Part shown: in pieces, positions 54,489 to 63,599 of the stretch
Layout: every line of letters begins with the position of its first letter
Numbering within the stretch: the first letter of the stretch is position 1
NCBI RefSeq assembly: GCF_020386635.1
Contig: NZ_CP081942.1
Location: 2,914,001-2,978,000, forward strand
DNA length: 64,000 bases
Origin: Pseudomonas sp. MM211
GTDB lineage: Bacteria > Pseudomonadota > Gammaproteobacteria > Pseudomonadales > Pseudomonadaceae
Direction of reading: 5' to 3'
Notes under the pieces: model-generated
What the model was told of the DNA's origin: nothing
Database searches by the model: none
Seen by the model: the letters and a program-made list of their open reading frames with translations, nothing else
Position numbers and translations under genes: made by a program

Positions 54489-56852
54489 TCAGTTCGGCAG
54501 GTCGAACAGGCCTTGCTGTGGTGGCGTTGGTAATGTCGGCGTGGCAGTGCGCGATGGTAGCTGTCGGCTGACCTGCGCAACGGGCACCTGAGGTACGCGG
54601 CTGCGTTGCACTTGCCACCAGCCTGGTAGCAGGGCTCGTACTTCGGGCAGGGTGAAGCGGTCGTCCATCAGGTGCACCACGCCGCTGTCCTGCGGCGTGC
54701 GGATGACCCGGCCAGCGGCCTGTACCACTTTCTGCAGGCCGGGAAACAGGTAGGTGTAGTCGTAGCCACTGCCGAACATTTCGGCCATGCGTTGCTTGAT
54801 CTGCTCGTTGATCGGGTTGATCTGTGGCAGGCCCAGGGTGGCGATGAAGGCGCCGATCAGGCGGTCGCCCGGCAGGTCGATGCCTTCGCCGAACACCCCG
54901 CCCAATACCGCGAAGCCGATACCCTGGCCACCCGCTTTGAAGCGCTCGAGGAACTGCTGGCGCTCGGTCTCGTCCATTTGTCGTGCCTGTACCCAGCGTG
55001 GGATCTGCGGGTGGTCGCGGTCGAACAGCTCCAGCACCTGTTGCAGGTAGGCATAGCTGCTGAAAAAGGCCAGGTAATTGCCCGGGCGCTCGGCGAACTG
55101 TCGCGCCATCAGGGCGACGATGGGTGCCAGTGAACGCTCGCGGTGCTGATAGCGTGTCGACAGGTTGCTCACCGCCTGTACCTGCAACTGTGCGGCCTGG
55201 AATGGCGACTCGACGTCCAGCCAGGGCGTTTCTTCCGGCAGGCCGAGCAGGTCTGCGTAGTAGCCGGCCGGGCTCAGGGTGGCGGAGAACAGCGTGGTGC
55301 TGTGGCTGTTTTCGAAGCGCGGAGCGAGAAACGGCGCCGGCACGATATTACGCAGGCACAGCACCGAATGGTTGCGCCCACGAAGATCCGCCTTGCGGCT
55401 AATGTCGAACAGTGAATGGGGGCCGAAGGCTTCTGCCAGGCGGCAGAAGGCCATGGCGTCGAGGTAGAACTGCAGCAGTTCGCCATCGTTGCCGGTGGGC
55501 TGATCCGTCAGGTGATCGGTAAGCGCGCTGACCGCTTTCTGCAGGGACAGGAGAAGCAGATCCGGCGGTTGCGGGTAGGTCTGGTAGTCCTCGGGCAGTT
55601 CCTTGTGCAGCTGTTTCCAGTGCCGGCTGATGCGTGTCAGGACGGCGCTCAGGCCCTTGGGGGCATTGCTGCGCATGGCTTCGAAGCGACCCTGATCGAG
55701 CTCGGCGCTGTACATGCGCCGGGCCCGTTCGATCAGGTTGTGGGCTTCATCGACCAGCAGCGTCACGCGCCACTCGTTGATCAGGGTCAGGCTATAGAGC
55801 AGGGCGCTGAGGTCGAAGTAGTAGTTGTAATCGCACACCACCACGTCGGCCCAGCGGGTCAGTTCCTGGCTCAGGTAGTAGGGGCAGACCTGATGCTGGA
55901 GCGCGATATCGCGCACCGCAGTCTGATCCAGCCAGATGCAGTCGACAGCGGCCTGGCGCGCGGCGGGCAGGCGGTCATAGAAACCTCGGGCCAGCGGGCA
56001 GGATTCGCCGTGACAGGCTTTGTCCGGGTGTTCGCAGGCCTTGTCCCGGGCGACGTGTTCCAGCACGCGCAACGGCAGGGTCTCGCCACGCAAGATCTGC
56101 AGGGCGTGCAGTGCAAGTTGGCGTCCCGGCGTTTTCGCGGTGAGAAAGAACAGTCGGTCGAGGCCGTTTTCCGCGAAGGCCTTGAGCTGCGGGAATAGCG
56201 TGCCCAGCGTCTTGCCGATGCCGGTGGTGGCCTGCGCCATCAGGCAGTGGCCGTCGCGGGCTGCACGGTACACAGCCTCAGCCAGTTGTCGCTGGCCAAG
56301 ACGAAACTCGGCGTGGGGAAAGCGCAGTTCGCCCAAGGCAGCGTCACGCATCTGACGGTGAGCCTGCTCCTGCTCGGCCCAAATGATAAAGCGGCTGCAC
56401 AGTGCCTCGAAAAAGCTGCATAGCTCGGCAGCCGTGCAGGTTTCTTGGAAAACGCTTTCTTTCTGGGTCAGAACGTTGAAGTACACCACCGCCAGATCGA
56501 TCTCTGCCAAACCGCGGCTCTGGCAGAGCAACCAGCCGTACACCCGTGCCTGAGCCCAGTGCAGTTGTCGGTGGTTGTCAGGAATGCGGCTGATATCGCC
56601 ACGGTGGGTCTTTATTTCCTCGAGCAGGTTACTGTGCGGATCGAAACCGTCAGCCCGGCCACGCACTTGCAGGGAGCGGAACTCACCGGCTAGGGGCACC
56701 TCCGCTTCATAGTGCTCGCCTCGTCGGCTGACCACCGTGGCATGTCCGGCCATACCCTCCTGGGCGGTGGGCGAGGGCGTGAAACGCAGGTCGAGGTCGC
56801 CGCATTTGGCGGTGAACTCGCAGAGCGCGCGCACCGCCACGCGATAGCTCAC
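54489..56852 (-). CDS. XPD/DinG-like iron-sulfur helicase with N-terminal PD-(D/E)XK-like motif
   Basis: A 787-residue superfamily 2 helicase. GTG 56852 overlaps the FAN1 stop (GTGA), so translation is coupled. Walker A is TTGIGKT at about 209-215; the DEAH box is VDEAHNL near 367-373. Four cysteines for a 4Fe-4S cluster lie at about 273, 280, 285 and 323 (ACEHPDKACHGESCP and QVCPYYL), as in DinG, XPD and FANCJ. The C-terminal helicase domain is complete (GFAVLGGVFGEGIDLPGDRL, VVQAAGRVIRTPQD). In the first 110 residues a nuclease-like motif can be read: Asp68 in GRADGF, Glu79-x-Lys81 in LLEEIKTH, then Gln96 and Tyr105, as in Cas4/RecB-type PD-(D/E)XK folds. It probably opens DNA at damage, with FAN1 as nuclease partner. 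Confidence 0.88.
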   Translation of the reverse strand: MSYRVAVRALCEFTAKCGDLDLRFTPSPTAQEGMAGHATVVSRRGEHYEAEVPLAGEFRSLQVRGRADGFDPHSNLLEEIKTHRGDISRIPDNHRQLHWAQARVYGWLLCQSRGLAEIDLAVVYFNVLTQKESVFQETCTAAELCSFFEALCSRFIIWAEQEQAHRQMRDAALGELRFPHAEFRLGQRQLAEAVYRAARDGHCLMAQATTGIGKTLGTLFPQLKAFAENGLDRLFFLTAKTPGRQLALHALQILRGETLPLRVLEHVARDKACEHPDKACHGESCPLARGFYDRLPAARQAAVDCIWLDQTAVRDIALQHQVCPYYLSQELTRWADVVVCDYNYYFDLSALLYSLTLINEWRVTLLVDEAHNLIERARRMYSAELDQGRFEAMRSNAPKGLSAVLTRISRHWKQLHKELPEDYQTYPQPPDLLLLSLQKAVSALTDHLTDQPTGNDGELLQFYLDAMAFCRLAEAFGPHSLFDISRKADLRGRNHSVLCLRNIVPAPFLAPRFENSHSTTLFSATLSPAGYYADLLGLPEETPWLDVESPFQAAQLQVQAVSNLSTRYQHRERSLAPIVALMARQFAERPGNYLAFFSSYAYLQQVLELFDRDHPQIPRWVQARQMDETERQQFLERFKAGGQGIGFAVLGGVFGEGIDLPGDRLIGAFIATLGLPQINPINEQIKQRMAEMFGSGYDYTYLFPGLQKVVQAAGRVIRTPQDSGVVHLMDDRFTLPEVRALLPGWWQVQRSRVPQVPVAQVSRQLPSRTATPTLPTPPQQGLFDLPN

Positions 56853-58489
56853 GCTTCGGCCCACTGCACGTAGCAGACGTCCACCGGCATGCCGTGTTCC
56901 GCGCAAAATGCCAGCCAGCGGCGCTGGTTGTCCTGCAGGCGATCACCCGGGCCTTTGACCTCGATCATGCGGTAGCGTTTTTCCTCGGGCCAGAACTGGA
57001 TCAGGTCGGGCATGCCGGCGCGATTGGCCTGGATATCACCGAGCAGGCGGCGAAACCAGGCGCGTAGATGCGCCGCTGGCAGGCAATCGAGGGCTTGATC
57101 CAGCAGTGCTTCGCTGAGCACGCCCCAATGCACGAACGGTGACTGGATGCCGAACTTGTCGCGGTAGGTACGGCGGATGCTGTTGCGATAACTGCCATCA
57201 TCCAGTTGCCCCAGGCATGCCGCGAACAGCTCCTGACGGCGCGGGTAGAAGTCAGTGGTGAGCAGGTCTGCCGGGCCGTGCTGGAATGGATGGAAGAAGG
57301 CGCCCGGCACCGCGGCGAATACCGCTGGCCAGCACAGCAGGCCGAACAGGCTGCAGATCAGTGTGTTCTCGACGTAGTGCACCGGTGCTTCACTGCGTTG
57401 CAAATGCATCTGTACGAGTTGTTCCACCGCCAGCAATGGCAGCCTGGGCAGCTGCAGGTCGAGGCGCGCGGGTAGCGAAGCCTTGGCACGTTTTTGCGCA
57501 GGCAGCCCCAATTGTCGGGTCAGGCGCGCCAACGCACGTTCGGCCAGTTGCAGTTCGCCGTCGCTGTTCGGCGCAGCAATGGCCTGGCCGGCCAACTCGA
57601 AGGCTTCGCTGTAACGCAGCGTGCGCTCCAGTACGCGAATCTGCCGCTGCCGCGCGGCGCCATAACCGCTGCTGGCGTATACCTGCAAGGCCAGTTCGAA
57701 CTCGGCGCAACGCTCCAGGTGCTGACCGATGCGAAACAGCAACTTGGCGCGCCGTTCGGCAATGTAGGGATTGTCGTAACGGCGAGTGTCGATGCGTTCG
57801 AGTAACTCGGTACTCGCATCTCCGGCCTCGAACACTTCGCGACAGCGCTGCAGATGCAGGTAATCGTCGACATCCTCGCGACAGCGCAGCGCTCGGGAGT
57901 CAGGCGGAAAGTCGACGCTTTCGTAGCGGAAGATACCCAGGTCAGCGAGCACGAACTCCGACCACTCCTGATGCAAATTGCCGAAGAACATCAACCGCAG
58001 GCGTTCGCTCAGGTCATCGATGGTCAGGCTGTAGAGGGCATCATCGAGCGTTGGGCACCAGGTATCGAATGCCTGAGCGTCGTCGAATTGCGCGGCGAGC
58101 TGCTCCAGCAGGTCGCCTTTACGGGCGCGGCGGTCGATGAGCCGGGCGGCGAAGCAGTCAATAATCTCGCCTTTGCGCAGCAGTGCCAGGAGCTCATCTA
58201 TCTGCAACGCCGCGTCATCGACGACCCATCCGTTGGCAACAAGCGCCAAGACGGCCTGGCGGCAGCAGCCAATTTCATCGTAATTGAGCTTACTGGCACG
58301 AAAATGCACGCCTTTGCGCATGATCATGCGCACCAGCAGGGCTTGTGCCGGGCCTTCGAGCGTGCTGAATGTTTGCAAAAACGCCTGCTCACGGGCGTTC
58401 AGCAGATCGGCATGGCGCTCTTCGATCCACGCCAGAGCCTTGTGAAAGTTATTCAGGTAATAGAAGCGTGGGTCGTCGGTAAATGGCAT
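56849..58489 (-). CDS. Bacterial FAN1-type VRR-NUC nuclease
   Basis: About 546 residues from ATG 58489 (MPFTDDPRFYYLNNFHKALA); two ATGs 17 codons upstream are possible starts. The N-terminal half is helical and ends in TPR-like repeats (ERRAKLLFRIGQHLERCAEF, RYSEAFELAGQAI). The C-terminal VRR-NUC domain carries GMPDLIQFWPEE and, after it, MIEVKGPGDRLQDNQRRW, so the PD-x(n)-E-x-K catalytic set is complete. This is the FAN1 family, which in P. aeruginosa has been shown to cut 5' flaps and interstrand crosslinks. It is the first gene of an operon with the FeS helicase, a natural crosslink-repair pair. Confidence 0.92.
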   Translation of the reverse strand: MPFTDDPRFYYLNNFHKALAWIEERHADLLNAREQAFLQTFSTLEGPAQALLVRMIMRKGVHFRASKLNYDEIGCCRQAVLALVANGWVVDDAALQIDELLALLRKGEIIDCFAARLIDRRARKGDLLEQLAAQFDDAQAFDTWCPTLDDALYSLTIDDLSERLRLMFFGNLHQEWSEFVLADLGIFRYESVDFPPDSRALRCREDVDDYLHLQRCREVFEAGDASTELLERIDTRRYDNPYIAERRAKLLFRIGQHLERCAEFELALQVYASSGYGAARQRQIRVLERTLRYSEAFELAGQAIAAPNSDGELQLAERALARLTRQLGLPAQKRAKASLPARLDLQLPRLPLLAVEQLVQMHLQRSEAPVHYVENTLICSLFGLLCWPAVFAAVPGAFFHPFQHGPADLLTTDFYPRRQELFAACLGQLDDGSYRNSIRRTYRDKFGIQSPFVHWGVLSEALLDQALDCLPAAHLRAWFRRLLGDIQANRAGMPDLIQFWPEEKRYRMIEVKGPGDRLQDNQRRWLAFCAEHGMPVDVCYVQWAEA

Positions 58490-58642
58490 GAGAGGGTGCT
58501 GGATACTGGTTTTATATACAGATATCAGGCCGCTCATCATCTTGCAATGAGCAGGAGATGGGCGGGCCGCACGTCGCGCTGTCGCTTGGCGCCGATAGCG
58601 GACTACACTGCTGCACCTCCATTGCCGCTTGAGCGGGCCATC

Positions 58643-59803
58643 ATGAACAGCCAGTTAGCCCCACTCTCTGCGAGCACATTGACCGAGCGTCATTACGAGA
58701 TGCTGGTTCAGGCCGTTGCCGACTACGCGATCTTCATGCTCAACCCGGAAGGCTGCATCGTTTCCTGGAATGCCGGTGCTGCGCGTATCAAGGGCTACGA
58801 CGCCACTGAGGTGATTGGCCAGCACCTGTCGATCTTTTACTCCGACGAAGACCGGCATGACGGTAAACCCTGGCAGCTTATCGAGCGGGCACTGCGCGAC
58901 GGGCGCTCTCAGGATGAGGGTTGGCGTGTGCGCAAGGATGGCTCCCGCTTTTGGGCGCTGGTGGCCATTGAAGTGATTCGCAATGAAGAGGGTGTGATCA
59001 TCGGCTTGGCCAAGATCACCCGCGATATCACGGACCGTCACGAGGCGGACATGCGCTATGACGCTTTGCGTGCACAGCTATTTCAGGCGCAGAAACTCGA
59101 AGCTCTGGGTCAGTTGAGTGGTGGTATGGCCCACGATTTCAATAACCTGCTGACCATCATCCTGAGTGCTGCCAAGCTGGCTAGCCGCACCAGCAACCCG
59201 GAGCGCTTGGCAAGCCTGCTCGCCAGTATCCAGAACGCTGGTGAGCGCGGCGCGCAGATGACGCGTAATCTGCTGACCTTCGCTCGCTGCGAACAGATGC
59301 CAAGCCGCCTGGTCAACCTCAACGCGCTGCTCGATACCGCTCATACGTTCATGAGCCAGGTACTGCCCAAGGGCATGAGCCTGGAAATGCACTACGCCCC
59401 TGACTTGCATTGTGTCGAACTCGACCCGAGTCAATTGGAAATGGCGCTGCTTAACCTCATCCTCAATGCCCGTGACGCTATGCACGGTACAGGTGTCGTA
59501 CGGTTGCACGCGGAGAACCGCACACTTGCCGGGGAGTTTGACGATCTGAGCGGGGAGTTCGTGTTGATTTCGGTCATCGATCATGGCATTGGTATCGACC
59601 CAGCCATTCGCTCGCGGCTGTTCGAGCCGTTTTTCACGACCAAGGATGTGGGCAAGGGAACTGGACTGGGGCTCAGCCAGGTCTATGGCTTTGCCCGGCA
59701 GGCCGGTGGTGACGTGCACGTCGAGAGCGTGGCAGGGCAGGGGGCTACCATGATTCTCTGCTTGCCTGCGGCTGTCGGGGAATCAGCAGGTGCTCGGGCA
59801 TGA
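58643..59803 (+). CDS. PAS-domain sensor histidine kinase
   Basis: A 386-residue cytoplasmic kinase. ATG 58643 starts MNSQLAPLSASTLTERHYEM; the open frame upstream is only the antisense of FAN1. A PAS domain lies at about residues 20-140, with the PAC-like WALVAIEVIRNEEGVIIGLA. The phospho-acceptor is His164 in [13 protein letters not shown]; the ATPase domain has LILNARDAMHGTG and GKGTGLGLSQVYGFARQAGG. It is the first gene of a plus-strand series (this kinase, KaiC-like ATPase, receiver, hybrid kinase). The stand-alone receiver is its likely partner. No transmembrane helix; the PAS might bind a cofactor, but no flavin-binding cysteine motif of LOV domains is seen. Confidence 0.92.
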   Translation: MNSQLAPLSASTLTERHYEMLVQAVADYAIFMLNPEGCIVSWNAGAARIKGYDATEVIGQHLSIFYSDEDRHDGKPWQLIERALRDGRSQDEGWRVRKDGSRFWALVAIEVIRNEEGVIIGLAKITRDITDRHEADMRYDALRAQLFQAQKLEALGQLSGGMAHDFNNLLTIILSAAKLASRTSNPERLASLLASIQNAGERGAQMTRNLLTFARCEQMPSRLVNLNALLDTAHTFMSQVLPKGMSLEMHYAPDLHCVELDPSQLEMALLNLILNARDAMHGTGVVRLHAENRTLAGEFDDLSGEFVLISVIDHGIGIDPAIRSRLFEPFFTTKDVGKGTGLGLSQVYGFARQAGGDVHVESVAGQGATMILCLPAAVGESAGARA

Positions 59804-59912
59804 ACATGCTAGTATCCGCGAGTCGCTTTTCCCATCAGTGCGTTAACCCCTAGGAAAAGCATATTCAAGCGTGGGCTTTTACTGCGTATTTACGACTGAG
59901 GCAGACCATAAC

Positions 59913-61355
59913 TTGGAACAGCTACAACGCCTTCAAAGTGGGATTGATGGACTGGACGCACTGCTCAAGGGCGGTCTGGTAGCCGGCGCATCCTATATCG
60001 TTCAGGGGCGCCCTGGCTCGGGCAAGACCATCCTGGCTAACCAAATCGCGTTCAATCATGTGCGTGATGGTGGTCGTGTGCTGGTGGCCACCTTGCTGGC
60101 CGAATCCCATGAAAGGCTCTTTCAATTCCTTTCCACGATGACCTTCTTCGACCCGGCCAAGGTCGGTGCGGAAATCCAGTTTGTCAGTGCTTTTGACACC
60201 CTGGAGAATGAGGGCCTCGATGAGGTCGTCAAGTTGCTGCGCCGTGAAATCAGTCGTCAGAAGGCCACGCTGCTCATCGTCGATGGTCTGCTGAATGCCC
60301 GCTCCAAAGCGGAAAATCAGATCGATACCAAGAAATTCATTGCCGAGTTGCAGGGCCACGCCGCTTTCGCGGGTTGCACCGTGCTGTTCCTGACCAGTTC
60401 TCGACTGGATGACGGCAGCCCTGAACACACCATGGTCGATGGCGTGATCGAACTTGGCGAAGAGTTGTTCGGTGCGCGTTCGGTACGCCGCATTCATCTG
60501 CGCAAGACCCGTGGCAGCGGTGCGCTGTCCGGGCTGCACGAGTGCGAAATCACCGACGACGGGCTGGTCGTTCACCCACGTCTGGAAAGCCTGTACAGCA
60601 AACCGATTCACGACGATATCGACACGCTGGCTCGCGTTACCAGCGGCATTCCAAGCCTCGATAAGCTGATCGGCGGTGGCCTTTCGGAGTCTTCGGTTAC
60701 CTTGGTCATGGGGCCGTCTGGTGTCGGCAAGACTACGTTGGGGCTGAACTTTCTCGCGCAGTCCACGGTGGCAACGCCAGGTCTGCATTTCGGCTTTTAC
60801 GAAACGCCGCAGCGCCTGCGTATCAAGGCCGAAGCCATCGGTCTTGACCTGCGGTCACTGGAAGAAAGTGGCGCGTTGCACATCATGTGGCAGCCAACCA
60901 CCGAGGGATTGCTTGACGGTCTTGGTGCGCGGGTCATCAAGGCAGTCCAAGAGAAAGGCATAAAACGCCTGCATATTGACAGCCTGGGCGGCATGGCGCG
61001 CGTAGCCACTAGCAGCACACGCCTGATCGAATTTTTCAGTGCCCTGATGAGCCAACTGCGCTCCATGGGCGTCACCGTGTTCGCTACCTGGGAGATGCGT
61101 GACCTGTTTGCAGCTGAGATCAATGCGCCTGCTCCGGAGCTGTCGAGCATTGTCGATAATCTGGTGCTGATGCGTTTCGTGGAAAAGGACGCTGAACTAA
61201 AGCGGCTCTTTTCCATACTTAAGATGAGGGACAGTTATTACGATTCCTCACTCTTGGAAGTGGTGATCAGCGATCATGGTATTGAACTCAGCAAGGCATT
61301 CAAAAACCAGGCAGGCGCGTTGTCAGGGAACGCCGTTCCGGCGCAGGACGCCTGA
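59913..61355 (+). CDS. KaiC-like double-RecA ATPase
   Basis: 480 residues from TTG 59913 (MEQLQRLQSGIDGLDALLKG); the GTG at 59871 adds 14 unlikely residues. It is a tandem RecA protein: P-loop 1 GRPGSGKT (32-39) and Walker B LLIVDGL (120-126); P-loop 2 GPSGVGKT (267-274) and Walker B RLHIDSLGG (352-360). The region ELSSIVDNLVLMRFVE (from about 409) aligns with the KaiC phosphorylation loop, with Ser411-Ser412 where cyanobacterial KaiC has Ser431-Thr432; KMRDSYYDSSLLEVVISDHG follows, also KaiC-like. Each ATPase site keeps only one of the paired catalytic glutamates (LLAESHERL and FYETPQRL). It is encoded between two histidine kinases, so it is probably part of their pathway. No kaiA or kaiB is nearby. 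Confidence 0.9.
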   Translation: MEQLQRLQSGIDGLDALLKGGLVAGASYIVQGRPGSGKTILANQIAFNHVRDGGRVLVATLLAESHERLFQFLSTMTFFDPAKVGAEIQFVSAFDTLENEGLDEVVKLLRREISRQKATLLIVDGLLNARSKAENQIDTKKFIAELQGHAAFAGCTVLFLTSSRLDDGSPEHTMVDGVIELGEELFGARSVRRIHLRKTRGSGALSGLHECEITDDGLVVHPRLESLYSKPIHDDIDTLARVTSGIPSLDKLIGGGLSESSVTLVMGPSGVGKTTLGLNFLAQSTVATPGLHFGFYETPQRLRIKAEAIGLDLRSLEESGALHIMWQPTTEGLLDGLGARVIKAVQEKGIKRLHIDSLGGMARVATSSTRLIEFFSALMSQLRSMGVTVFATWEMRDLFAAEINAPAPELSSIVDNLVLMRFVEKDAELKRLFSILKMRDSYYDSSLLEVVISDHGIELSKAFKNQAGALSGNAVPAQDA

Positions 61356-61385
61356 GCCATGCGTGCCTGACCGAGCCTACTGATT

Positions 61386-61748
61386 ATGACAACCATCCTG
61401 ATAGTCGATGACGAATACCTGATCGCGGATATTCTCGGCTATGCCATGGAGGATGAAGGCTACATGGTGGTGAAGGCGAGCAATGGCCGTAGAGGCCTGG
61501 AAGTGCTCGACCGCGAACGCCCTGAGTTGGTCATCACGGATTTCATGATGCCGGTCATGGATGGCCTCGAATTCGCCCGTGCCATACGGGCGAGGCCTGC
61601 GTCTGCTGATCTGCCGATCATTCTGATGAGCGGTGCCCAAGGCAGTGTCGGGCGCGCCAGCCCTGAGCTGTTTGCTGCGGTATTCGACAAACCTTTCGAT
61701 ATCAATCAGGTCATCGCCACGGTAAGGGAACTGATCGGCTCGAGCTGA
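61386..61748 (+). CDS. Stand-alone response regulator receiver
   Basis: A 120-residue single-domain receiver. The acidic pocket is Asp8-Asp9 (ILIVDDEYL), phospho-acceptor Asp52 in LVITDFMMPVMDG, conserved Ser in IILMSGAQ and Lys in FDKPFDINQV. It has no output domain, like CheY or Spo0F-type relays. It is 30 bases downstream of the KaiC-like gene and close to two histidine kinases, so it likely takes phosphate from one of them and passes it on or signals by binding. Start ATG 61386. Confidence 0.95.
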   Translation: MTTILIVDDEYLIADILGYAMEDEGYMVVKASNGRRGLEVLDRERPELVITDFMMPVMDGLEFARAIRARPASADLPIILMSGAQGSVGRASPELFAAVFDKPFDINQVIATVRELIGSS

Positions 61749-62090
61749 TTAATTACCGCCTTTCAGCCTCCATTCCCGTTCCACTGATCTATTTCTTCGT
61801 CTGTTCTATTTCTGGAACGCCTTCGCGTGGGCGAATGTCGAATCCTGCGTATACGCCACCGTCGCCATCAGGTGACAAGGCAGTCCGTCGTGTCGAGAGC
61901 AGGTATCCATGGATGAGGTTGTAGTACGGGCGCCCGTTGATGCCCGGTGGTTGGAGGTCGCGTTGGCCGTTTTCCCATTGATGTGGAAGGTGGTTAAGGG
62001 TGACCCGACAACTTCATATCGGTGGTTACGAGCCCATTCTGCCAGCGTGCCTCGGTCTTGCGACGCGTTCATGAATCGCGGATGGTGCCC
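61749..62090. other. Intergenic region before the second kinase of the KaiC-like cluster
   Basis: About 340 bases. An 88-residue minus-strand frame (61806-62072) and a short plus-strand frame (from 61909) have no ribosome site and no family signature. The start of the kinase could be ATG 62082 or 62091. I see no terminator, so read-through from the receiver gene is possible. Confidence 0.4.
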
Positions 62091-63599
62091 ATGCGCGTAT
62101 TGATCTGTAGTGACGAAGCGAGCCTGTTGCTACCGTTGCTTGCACCCTTGGAGTTTACCTTCGAGCTATGCGACAGCTTTGCGATGTTGCTCGATGCCCT
62201 GGCAGGCAATGCCGATGCCGTTTTGATCGCCGAGGAGGTGCTGGCGGGCCAAGATGAGCGTGCATACGGCAGGCTTTTCCAATCCTCGCTTCCGCTTATT
62301 CTGCTCGGCGCTGCCACAGTCCAGGAGCCGTGCGCAGCATTAGGTGGCAGCGGTGCCGTCGTGCTGGAGCGCCCATTCACGTCGCGCTCACTGTGCAGTT
62401 GCCTGACGGCGCTCGTTAACCGTTCGCCAGGCGCCGTTCTGGAAGGGCATCGCAGCGAGGGCGAATTGGCGTTGCTGCAAAGCCAGAGGATGGATGCCGT
62501 TGGGTCGTTGACCAGCGGTATCGCACATGATTTCAACAACGTGCTTACCGGCATCATCGGCGCGCTGGATATCATGAAGCGTCGTGTTGCCAATGGCCGG
62601 TTGGAAGGAATAGGACGTTTTATCGAGGCCGCCAGCGTTTCTGCGGATCGGGCCAGTGCGCTGACCCAGCGGCTGTTGACCTTTTCCCATCGACAGCCGT
62701 TGGATGCCAGGCCCGTTGATGTGGATCCACTTCTCGAATCGCTGGAGTTGCTGATCAGGCGCACGATCAGTAAAGGTATTTCGCTGCAGGTCGATTACCG
62801 GCACGGCACGGCACGGGTTCTGGTGGATGCTCGGCAGCTGGAAAGCGCAATCCTCAACCTTGCCGTTAATGCCCGCGATGCCATGCCCAATGGCGGGCAA
62901 ATACGGCTGCACACAGCGCTGATCAGCCTGACACGGGAAGAAATGACGGCCTTGCCCGATCTGCTGCCGGGTGACTATCTGCTGATCGCCTTTTCGGATA
63001 CCGGTTATGGCATTAGCAGCGATGCGCTGGAGAAAGTTTTCGATCCGTTCTTTACCACCAAGTCCATCGGGCAGGGCAGTGGCCTGGGGCTGCCAATGGT
63101 GCATGGGTTTGCACGACAGAGCGGTGGTCAGGTCACCATTCACAGCGAGCCAGGCATTGGTACCACGGTGCGCTTGTACCTGCCCGTTGCCGCAGGCGAA
63201 CAGGATCCGGTTGCCAATCTCGTACCCGAGCATGCTTTAGGCCATCGGGTTCTGCTGGTTGAAAGCGATTCGGCGGTGCGGCTGCTGGTGTCCGAGGTGT
63301 TGGCACAGAGGCGCTGTGAAATCGTTAATGCTGCCGAACCCCAAGCGGCTATCGAGCTGCTCGCGTCCAGCGCGTCGTTCGACCTGCTGGTTTCGGATAT
63401 CAATCTGCCTGGTATCACGGCCTTGCAACTGGTCGGTTTAGCGCAACAGTGCAGGCCTGGCTTGCCTGTATTGCTGATCGCTGGCGATGCCGATGATGAG
63501 CCGCTTGCCTCGTTACCTGGCCTCAAGAGAATCAATAAACCCTTCTCCATGCGAGAGCTGAGCGAAACCATCGACGACATGTTGCCGTCGAGGCCTTGA
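62091..63599 (+). CDS. Hybrid histidine kinase with degenerate N-terminal receiver
   Basis: A 502-residue protein from ATG 62091 (MRVLICSDEASLLLPLLAPL). Residues 1-112 look like a receiver that has lost its phospho-acceptor: ADAVLIAEEVLAG has no Asp at the site, while the VVLERPFTSRSL helix keeps the fold. The kinase core has His146 in [29 protein letters not shown] and GSGLGLPMVHGFARQSGG. A C-terminal receiver carries Asp436 in LLVSDINLPGI with KPF. So it is a pseudo-receiver, kinase, receiver relay protein with no membrane helix. The input may be protein binding to the pseudo-receiver, for example the KaiC-like ATPase. It closes the signalling cluster. Confidence 0.9.
   Translation: MRVLICSDEASLLLPLLAPLEFTFELCDSFAMLLDALAGNADAVLIAEEVLAGQDERAYGRLFQSSLPLILLGAATVQEPCAALGGSGAVVLERPFTSRSLCSCLTALVNRSPGAVLEGHRSEGELALLQSQRMDAVGSLTSGIAHDFNNVLTGIIGALDIMKRRVANGRLEGIGRFIEAASVSADRASALTQRLLTFSHRQPLDARPVDVDPLLESLELLIRRTISKGISLQVDYRHGTARVLVDARQLESAILNLAVNARDAMPNGGQIRLHTALISLTREEMTALPDLLPGDYLLIAFSDTGYGISSDALEKVFDPFFTTKSIGQGSGLGLPMVHGFARQSGGQVTIHSEPGIGTTVRLYLPVAAGEQDPVANLVPEHALGHRVLLVESDSAVRLLVSEVLAQRRCEIVNAAEPQAAIELLASSASFDLLVSDINLPGITALQLVGLAQQCRPGLPVLLIAGDADDEPLASLPGLKRINKPFSMRELSETIDDMLPSRP

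Follow-up and report, generated by a model that had tools for sequence, protein, structure and literature searches.

A KaiC-like ATPase and a stand-alone receiver as constant partners in Pseudomonas sp. MM211 and its relatives: a possible switch fed by two-component kinases

What does a KaiC-like ATPase do where its neighbours are two-component genes rather than KaiA and KaiB? The locus that raises this question lies in a 64,000-nucleotide stretch (the window; G000:C1:2914001-2978000 in our coordinates) of the closed 5.28 Mb genome of Pseudomonas sp. MM211. A sequence-only reading of the window had described four same-strand genes for a PAS kinase, a double KaiC, a receiver and a hybrid kinase, and these are indeed present in that order, with domains assigned by Pfam:

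58643..59803, + strand: HK1, a PAS - HisKA - HATPase_c histidine kinase (Pfam)
59871..61355, + strand: KaiC-like double RecA ATPase, two PF06745 units, 202 bits
61386..61748, + strand: RR, a stand-alone single-domain receiver (PF00072), phospho-acceptor Asp codon at 61539-61541
62022..63599, + strand: HK2, a hybrid kinase, pseudo-receiver - HisKA - HATPase_c - receiver (Pfam; the pseudo-receiver by model and profile comparison)

KaiC and RR are separated by 30 bases, RR and HK2 by 273 or 333 bases depending on the choice of HK2 start. The constant unit of this arrangement is KaiC plus RR, a pair that we never found apart within this KaiC clade, and we see about an even chance that the locus is a KaiC-receiver switch fed by two-component kinases.

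The linkage was read in an orthologue set of 80 loci, fetched from 124 places outside MM211 (E<1e-90; fragments, stop-containing matches and some others were left out), and in 80 named loci kept from 159 confirmed ones; the 160 loci yielded 130 distinct KaiC sequences. RR lies directly downstream of all 130 on the same strand (61-91% identity to the MM211 protein), named orthologues from Pseudomonas straminea and P. flavescens, near which the MM211 genome lies, stand at 90-91%, and named P. putida strains carry the receiver-linked clade as well. A receiver likewise directly follows KaiC in all 11 relatives at 35-65% identity, which belong to different genera and reach as far as different classes, and in the plasmid copies described below, so that a receiver was found at all 152 loci checked (130 orthologues, 11 relatives and 11 plasmid copies). 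Across loci the two genes are a median of 21 bases apart, with quartiles of 12 and 24 bases; five outliers near 1460-1480 are caused by stops right where the KaiC match begins. All 138 distinct RRs retain the residues for receiver phosphorylation (Asp9, Asp52 and Lys102). In 7 of 118 orthologue genomes (G166, G234, G217, G183, G181, G020 and G194) the receiver-linked KaiC is present twice, and one of the two G194 copies has a stop inside the match.

Beyond this range the partner changes. Among 20 fetched relatives of at most 32% identity, none has a stand-alone receiver directly downstream; a kinase stands there in 16, and L245 has in that place a longer protein with a receiver at its beginning. 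In a tree of 44 KaiC sequences (quick search), 23 receiver-linked sequences fall on one branch (SH-aLRT 99) and 14 kinase-linked ones on another (SH-aLRT 98; the kinase N-terminus was read for 13 of the 14, and L216 counts as kinase-linked from a kinase match). KaiCs split into clades according to their partner, receiver or kinase, and the MM211 locus, with a single-domain receiver after KaiC and no adjoining kaiB, belongs with the kaiC-receiver group. The 2011 Ramlibacter paper already set apart from the kaiB-linked group a 'black group' in which kaiC is frequently followed by a single-domain receiver gene (PMC3164672); the receiver after kaiC is common to both descriptions, and the link called frequent there is constant here.

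A survey of 72,556 plasmid records returned a KaiC relative at E<=1e-60 in 28, and in all 11 copies that we opened the receiver adjoins KaiC; on three plasmids the KaiC stop overlaps the RR start. What else lies nearby differs from plasmid to plasmid: kinases of hybrid, PAS or HAMP type, an antitoxin gene, or no related gene at all. The gene tables, which are incomplete, give no kinase within 3.5 kb of the pairs L300 and L303. L300 is carried by a conjugative plasmid of Cupriavidus pauculus (NZ_CP044066.1), where a tyrosine recombinase (integrase) gene lies downstream of the overlapping pair; it could be a mobile two-gene cassette.

Is the ATPase a clock-type KaiC? It has the two tandem PF06745 domains with intact Walker A motifs of the KaiC superfamily, and its predicted structure (from an alignment of 56 of 66 in-frame loci plus the window sequence) matches full-length KaiC chains with TMt values of 0.78-0.84 among the 50 matches listed. 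The scores nevertheless fall short of the NCBIfam cut-offs for clock KaiC, both for TIGR02655 (133.8 bits against 546.25) and for PRK09302 (204.6 against 408). The residues that bear on its chemistry were located by MAFFT and by alignment to KaiC structures, which agree on the E318/E319 equivalence:

60006..60029, + strand: CI P-loop GRPGSGKT, Lys kept in 130/130 orthologues
60099..60104, + strand: CI Ala-Glu, equivalent to KaiC E77-E78; first residue A 64, S 65, C 1, and E78 equivalent kept in 130/130
60711..60734, + strand: CII P-loop GPSGVGKT, Lys kept in 130/130 orthologues
60798..60803, + strand: CII Tyr-Glu, equivalent to KaiC E318-E319; first residue Y 128, H 2, and E319 equivalent kept in 130/130
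61143..61148, + strand: Ser-Ser pair aligned with KaiC S431/T432; SS 116, SG 11, SN 1, SC 1, AS 1 (n = 130)

Both P-loops are therefore as intact as the sequence-only reading had said, and the Ser-Ser pair does sit where cyanobacterial KaiC is phosphorylated. Its numbering depends on the start: the serines are residues 425/426 counting from GTG 59871 and 411/412, as that reading had them, only if the protein begins at TTG 59913. That downstream start is the likely one, because most relatives among the best 120 of 1780 matches are about 480 residues long and because 5 of 173 loci have an in-frame stop within the first ~17 codons of the match, before or near the TTG.

The Glu pairs of clock-type KaiCs are a different matter, since AE and YE stand in place of EE in CI and CII. 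In cyanobacterial KaiC, according to the account of these residues in PMC2777353, E318 activates S431/T432 and E77 activates water in CI, and the E318A mutant is arhythmic without phosphoryl transfer. Outside the orthologues, Tyr occupies the E318 position in all 11 plasmid copies and in 7 of the 11 distant relatives, the other four having H, F, F and T; the E77 position is A, S or C throughout the 130 orthologues, the 11 distant relatives and the 11 plasmid copies. The trans-acting Lys/Arg pairs are retained in the 23 receiver-clade members aligned and in all but one of the 11 plasmid copies. The second Ser of the pair is kept in 117 of 130 orthologues (G, N or C in the other 13). Nine of the 11 distant relatives have A or G in its place, and three of the 11 plasmid copies have G, P or A. 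The first Ser is kept in 129 of 130 orthologues and is lost in the remaining one, in L211 and in two plasmids. We also looked at whether loss of the second Ser goes with loss of HK1, as the counts would have it (SS at 74 of 74 loci with an HK1 match above 150 bits, at 42 of 56 without), and dropped this tie because the tree holds only 3 and 7 changes, without independent support.

These residues bear most directly on the timer proposed in the sequence-only reading, in which Ser425 and Ser426 would be autophosphorylated in order and the slow cycle would time a phosphorelay without KaiA or KaiB, like an hourglass. The alignment of the pair with S431/T432, its retention in 116 of 130 orthologues (the first Ser in 129) and the double-ring KaiC fold speak for such a device. 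The kinase Glu, however, is Tyr in 128 of 130 orthologues, the catalytic Glu of CI is gone as well, and the second Ser varies; in addition, a citing paper states that a Pseudomonas KaiC study gave no evidence of circadian function (PMC11832031). Timing by autophosphorylation is thus not supported, and we consider the timer very unlikely; nor, on the reading that we prefer below, would the system be a clock that sustains itself. Because the residues for KaiC self-phosphorylation are gone, a signalling switch acting through a phosphate relay is the more natural reading than a clock. Phospho-chemistry is thus conserved on the receiver, and on the KaiC-like protein it is unproven.

The sequence-only reading noted no KaiA or KaiB in the cluster and called for a genome-wide KaiB search; neither PF07689 nor PF07688 finds a match anywhere in the MM211 genome, whereas a Synechococcus control genome scored for both. 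KaiB was found in 1 of 50 orthologue-bearing genomes (G165), as two tandem genes beside another KaiC and away from the receiver-linked locus. That KaiB-linked KaiC (L240, G165:C1:213707-226269; L229, L230) has Glu-Glu in both rings and Ser-Ser, and forms with the kaiB genes a clock-type set in the same genus, in a genome that also has the KaiC-receiver pair.

MM211 itself has a second double KaiC about 1 Mb away (L228:5980-9577; G000:C1:1992471-1993892), a member of the kinase-linked family (family 2) with a Ser-Tyr site and Asp-Glu in CII (MAFFT); its stop overlaps the start of its own hybrid kinase (pseudo-receiver/HisKA/HATPase/receiver, with a weak PAS match). The family-2 KaiCs aligned have Asp-Glu in CII, lack E77 and carry S/T-Y at the phosphosite. 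Since family 2 has Asp-Glu and the KaiB-linked KaiC Glu-Glu at the CII position, and since family 2 also lacks E77, the change at the E318 position is, on these alignments, what marks the receiver-linked clade, and the change at the E77 position is not. Family 2, to which the second MM211 KaiC belongs, corresponds to the 'dark-blue' kaiC - Nt_HK group described in PMC3164672. It resembles the locus in the window in that KaiC lies beside a kinase, without KaiB, and in that the kinase's N-terminal domain is receiver-like and matches that of HK2; it differs in being a separate KaiC clade, in having Asp-Glu rather than Tyr-Glu in CII and S/T-Y at the phosphosite, and in having a fixed partner kinase.

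Which kinases, then, would feed the pair? HK1, whose phospho-acceptor His we take to be encoded by codon 59132-59134 in an HDFNN box, has an orthologue preceding KaiC at 71 of 130 loci, with a more distant kinase in 3 more. In a scan of 199 Pseudomonas genomes (the nine best first-look candidates were scored per genome, and matches at E<=1e-95 listed), there were 41 orthologues of at least 54% identity, every one of them immediately upstream of KaiC; matches one identity level lower (43-48%) belong to another kinase, for the most part within longer reading frames. HK1 is hence a kinase found only with the KaiC-receiver pair (41 of 41 orthologues in the scan).

This exclusive position could also be taken to mean that KaiC acts upstream, as in cyanobacteria, with HK1 and HK2 reading out its conformation or nucleotide state in the manner of CikA or SasA and with RR as the phosphate target of the kinases. 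The restriction of HK1 orthologues to sites beside KaiC suits this arrangement, as does the N-terminus of HK2, which resembles a domain of kinases placed right after family-2 KaiCs and proposed in 2011 to interact with KaiC (PMC3164672). If KaiC were read by kinases alone, however, a kinase should be the fixed partner, as in family 2; here the kinases vary (HK1 at 71 and HK2 at 8 of 130 loci), L300 and L303 show no annotated kinase nearby, and RR is the constant element. We therefore regard a KaiC upstream of its kinases as rather unlikely.

HK2 deserves a closer look on this account, and two parts of it matter:

62082..62474, + strand: HK2 N-terminal pseudo-receiver without Asp (hhalign to the family-2 partner-kinase domain; receiver fold in model)
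63249..63572, + strand: HK2 C-terminal receiver with Asp (PF00072 at residues 410-517)

The N-terminus has no Pfam match at E<=10. Its AlphaFold2 model (7-row alignment, pLDDT 76.5) finds receivers as the PDB matches listed (best E 3.5e-6), and none of the 7 sequences in the domain alignment, from which L130 was left out, has the acceptor Asp, in agreement with the earlier description of an N-terminal receiver that has lost its Asp. In profile comparisons with hhalign, this domain matches the family-2 partner-kinase domain (probability 97.3, E 1.9e-11) and, more weakly, the neighbouring RR (59.4%, E 9e-5); since the partner-kinase domain itself matches RR (94.9%), both domains are receiver-like. 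A profile of the partner domain gave 68 strong and 15 weak matches in 119 Pseudomonas genomes; all of the 30 strongest, whose loci we read, follow a KaiC, and the 15 weak ones do not. The same profile did not detect HK2 at E<=1e-8, and the HK2 link rests on the profile-profile comparison. By hhalign the HK2 domain also agrees with the Nt_HK (RtaNt) type, RtaNt being identified from its published description rather than its sequence, and compared with the description in PMC3164672 it looks like the KaiC-interacting module of that paper.

The weak matches are a group in their own right: orphan hybrid kinases (L279-L293) in 15 of the 119 genomes, 11 of them tail to tail with another kinase. The KaiC-receiver pair is present elsewhere in 13 of these 15 genomes, in L283 about 5 kb away, a co-occurrence that is suggestive, not conclusive.

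Neither kinase is of the SasA type, in which the N-terminal domain is KaiB-like, as HK1 starts with a PAS domain and HK2 with a receiver-like fold. CikA combines a pseudo-receiver on a kinase with a GAF-type sensor; HK2 has the pseudo-receiver and no GAF domain. HK2 is found at 8 of 130 KaiC loci, all within the 9 loci whose KaiC is at least 85% identical, and one of the eight matches (L126) begins at residue 144, at a distance of 3 kb. HK2 as a genus-wide module was accordingly rejected, given that at E<=1e-110 it occurs in MM211 and, of 57 relatives, in G001 only. Its domain makes HK2 a plausible KaiC kinase, present in a few closely related species, for which the parallel to CikA drawn in the sequence-only reading stands; for the 122 loci without HK2 it does not. 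More generally, that reading had tied the ATPase to two-component proteins and had named freely varying neighbours as a sign against the tie. The kinases do vary, HK1 being missing at 59 and HK2 at 122 of 130 loci, and the receiver is constant; the receiver linkage, the HK1 orthologues beside KaiC and the domain that HK2 shares with KaiC-following kinases all uphold the tie itself.

Loss of the catalytic Glu in both rings with the P-loops retained would also suit a ring that serves as a nucleotide sensor or scaffold with an output outside two-component signalling, the receiver being a general stabilising subunit and HK1 and HK2 mere passengers, which are missing at many loci. A purely structural subunit would have no need of phosphorylation residues kept in 138 of 138 receivers, though, and all HK1 orthologues in the scan lie beside KaiC; such a role strikes us as improbable.

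Our preferred reading, the KaiC-receiver switch, would work as follows. HK1, and in the MM211 lineage also HK2, would sense a signal and phosphorylate RR, which in one phospho-state would dock on the ATP-bound KaiC-like hexamer and set its conformation or its binding of partners, filling the place held by KaiA or KaiB in cyanobacteria; the HK2 pseudo-receiver probably contacts a KaiC directly. The ring would in turn relay its state to partners, perhaps in the control of stress or biofilms. Environmental Pseudomonas KaiC-like proteins are reportedly linked to stress resistance and biofilms, without circadian evidence (Terrettaz et al. 2023, by way of citing papers). Direct contact between RR and KaiC is plausible because of archaeal KaiC-receiver fusions and of the receiver-like domains in KaiA and KaiA3. 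KaiC-REC fusions are described for six Methanosarcinaceae genera, along with iKaiC proteins, some of which are called possibly inactivated (PMC5847659); there as here a KaiC-family ATPase is tied to a receiver, in one polypeptide rather than two genes. KaiA has a pseudo-receiver and KaiA3 a receiver domain (PMC11372060). Compared with the cyanobacterial KaiABC system with SasA and CikA, the double-ring KaiC fold and kinases with receiver-like parts are shared, whereas MM211 has no KaiA or KaiB match, has lost E77 and E318 and has a true stand-alone receiver as the constant partner.

Several points weigh against this switch. The contact between RR and KaiC, the direction of signalling and the output are all inferred. 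Kinase input is not fixed, as the 59 loci without an HK1 orthologue show. No bacterial KaiC-receiver fusion occurs among the best 120 of 1780 matches, and an AlphaFold2 model of concatenated KaiC and RR (one chain) folds well (pTM 0.69) with no readable interface. The first Ser, near constant in the orthologues, is not obviously needed if the ring is not phosphorylated there; Tyr or another residue at the E318 position might still permit slow autokinase or ATPase activity; and loss of the CI Glu, common to family 2, is not special to the receiver clade.

A wider version, which we put forward tentatively as somewhat short of even, holds that the whole clade, on proteobacterial chromosomes and plasmids alike, dropped the autokinase chemistry and swapped KaiA and KaiB for a phosphorylatable receiver, so that kinases would drive the KaiC ring rather than read it, and that the MM211 lineage recruited a kinase with a family-2-type pseudo-receiver. 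PSEEN2280, a close point of comparison, is presumably a protein of Pseudomonas entomophila. PMC3164672 describes it as an exception within the black group with an SS profile, and states the idea of a KaiB-less hourglass for another kaiC group. Known since 2011 from that source are hence kaiC followed by a receiver, the SS-type member PSEEN2280 and the hourglass for KaiB-less KaiC; its account of the black group, in the sections describing it, is silent on loss of the catalytic Glu, on an HK1 dedicated to the pair, on copies carried by plasmids, on an HK2-type kinase at such a locus and on what follows PSEEN2280. We add that the kinase Glu is lost clade-wide, that the receiver linkage is constant and extends to plasmids, that HK1 was found only with the pair and that HK2 brings a family-2-type pseudo-receiver to a receiver-type locus, for none of which an account was found in the accessible portions of the literature searched, most subscription journals lying outside it.

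KaiC relatives without KaiA and KaiB are widespread in bacteria. If the clade is driven by a phospho-receiver, the role of a clockless KaiC becomes testable with three soluble proteins (HK1, RR and KaiC). The Glu-to-Tyr signature offers a quick marker by which genome surveys could separate switch-type KaiCs from clock-type ones, and the occurrence on plasmids suggests a KaiC-receiver pair that travels as a unit.

Beside the KaiC cluster, on the opposite strand (-, 54489-58540), lies a divergent FAN1-type nuclease (FAN1_HTH, FANC_SAP, VRR_NUC), whose frame overlaps a DEAD_2/Helicase_C_2 helicase within the same interval.

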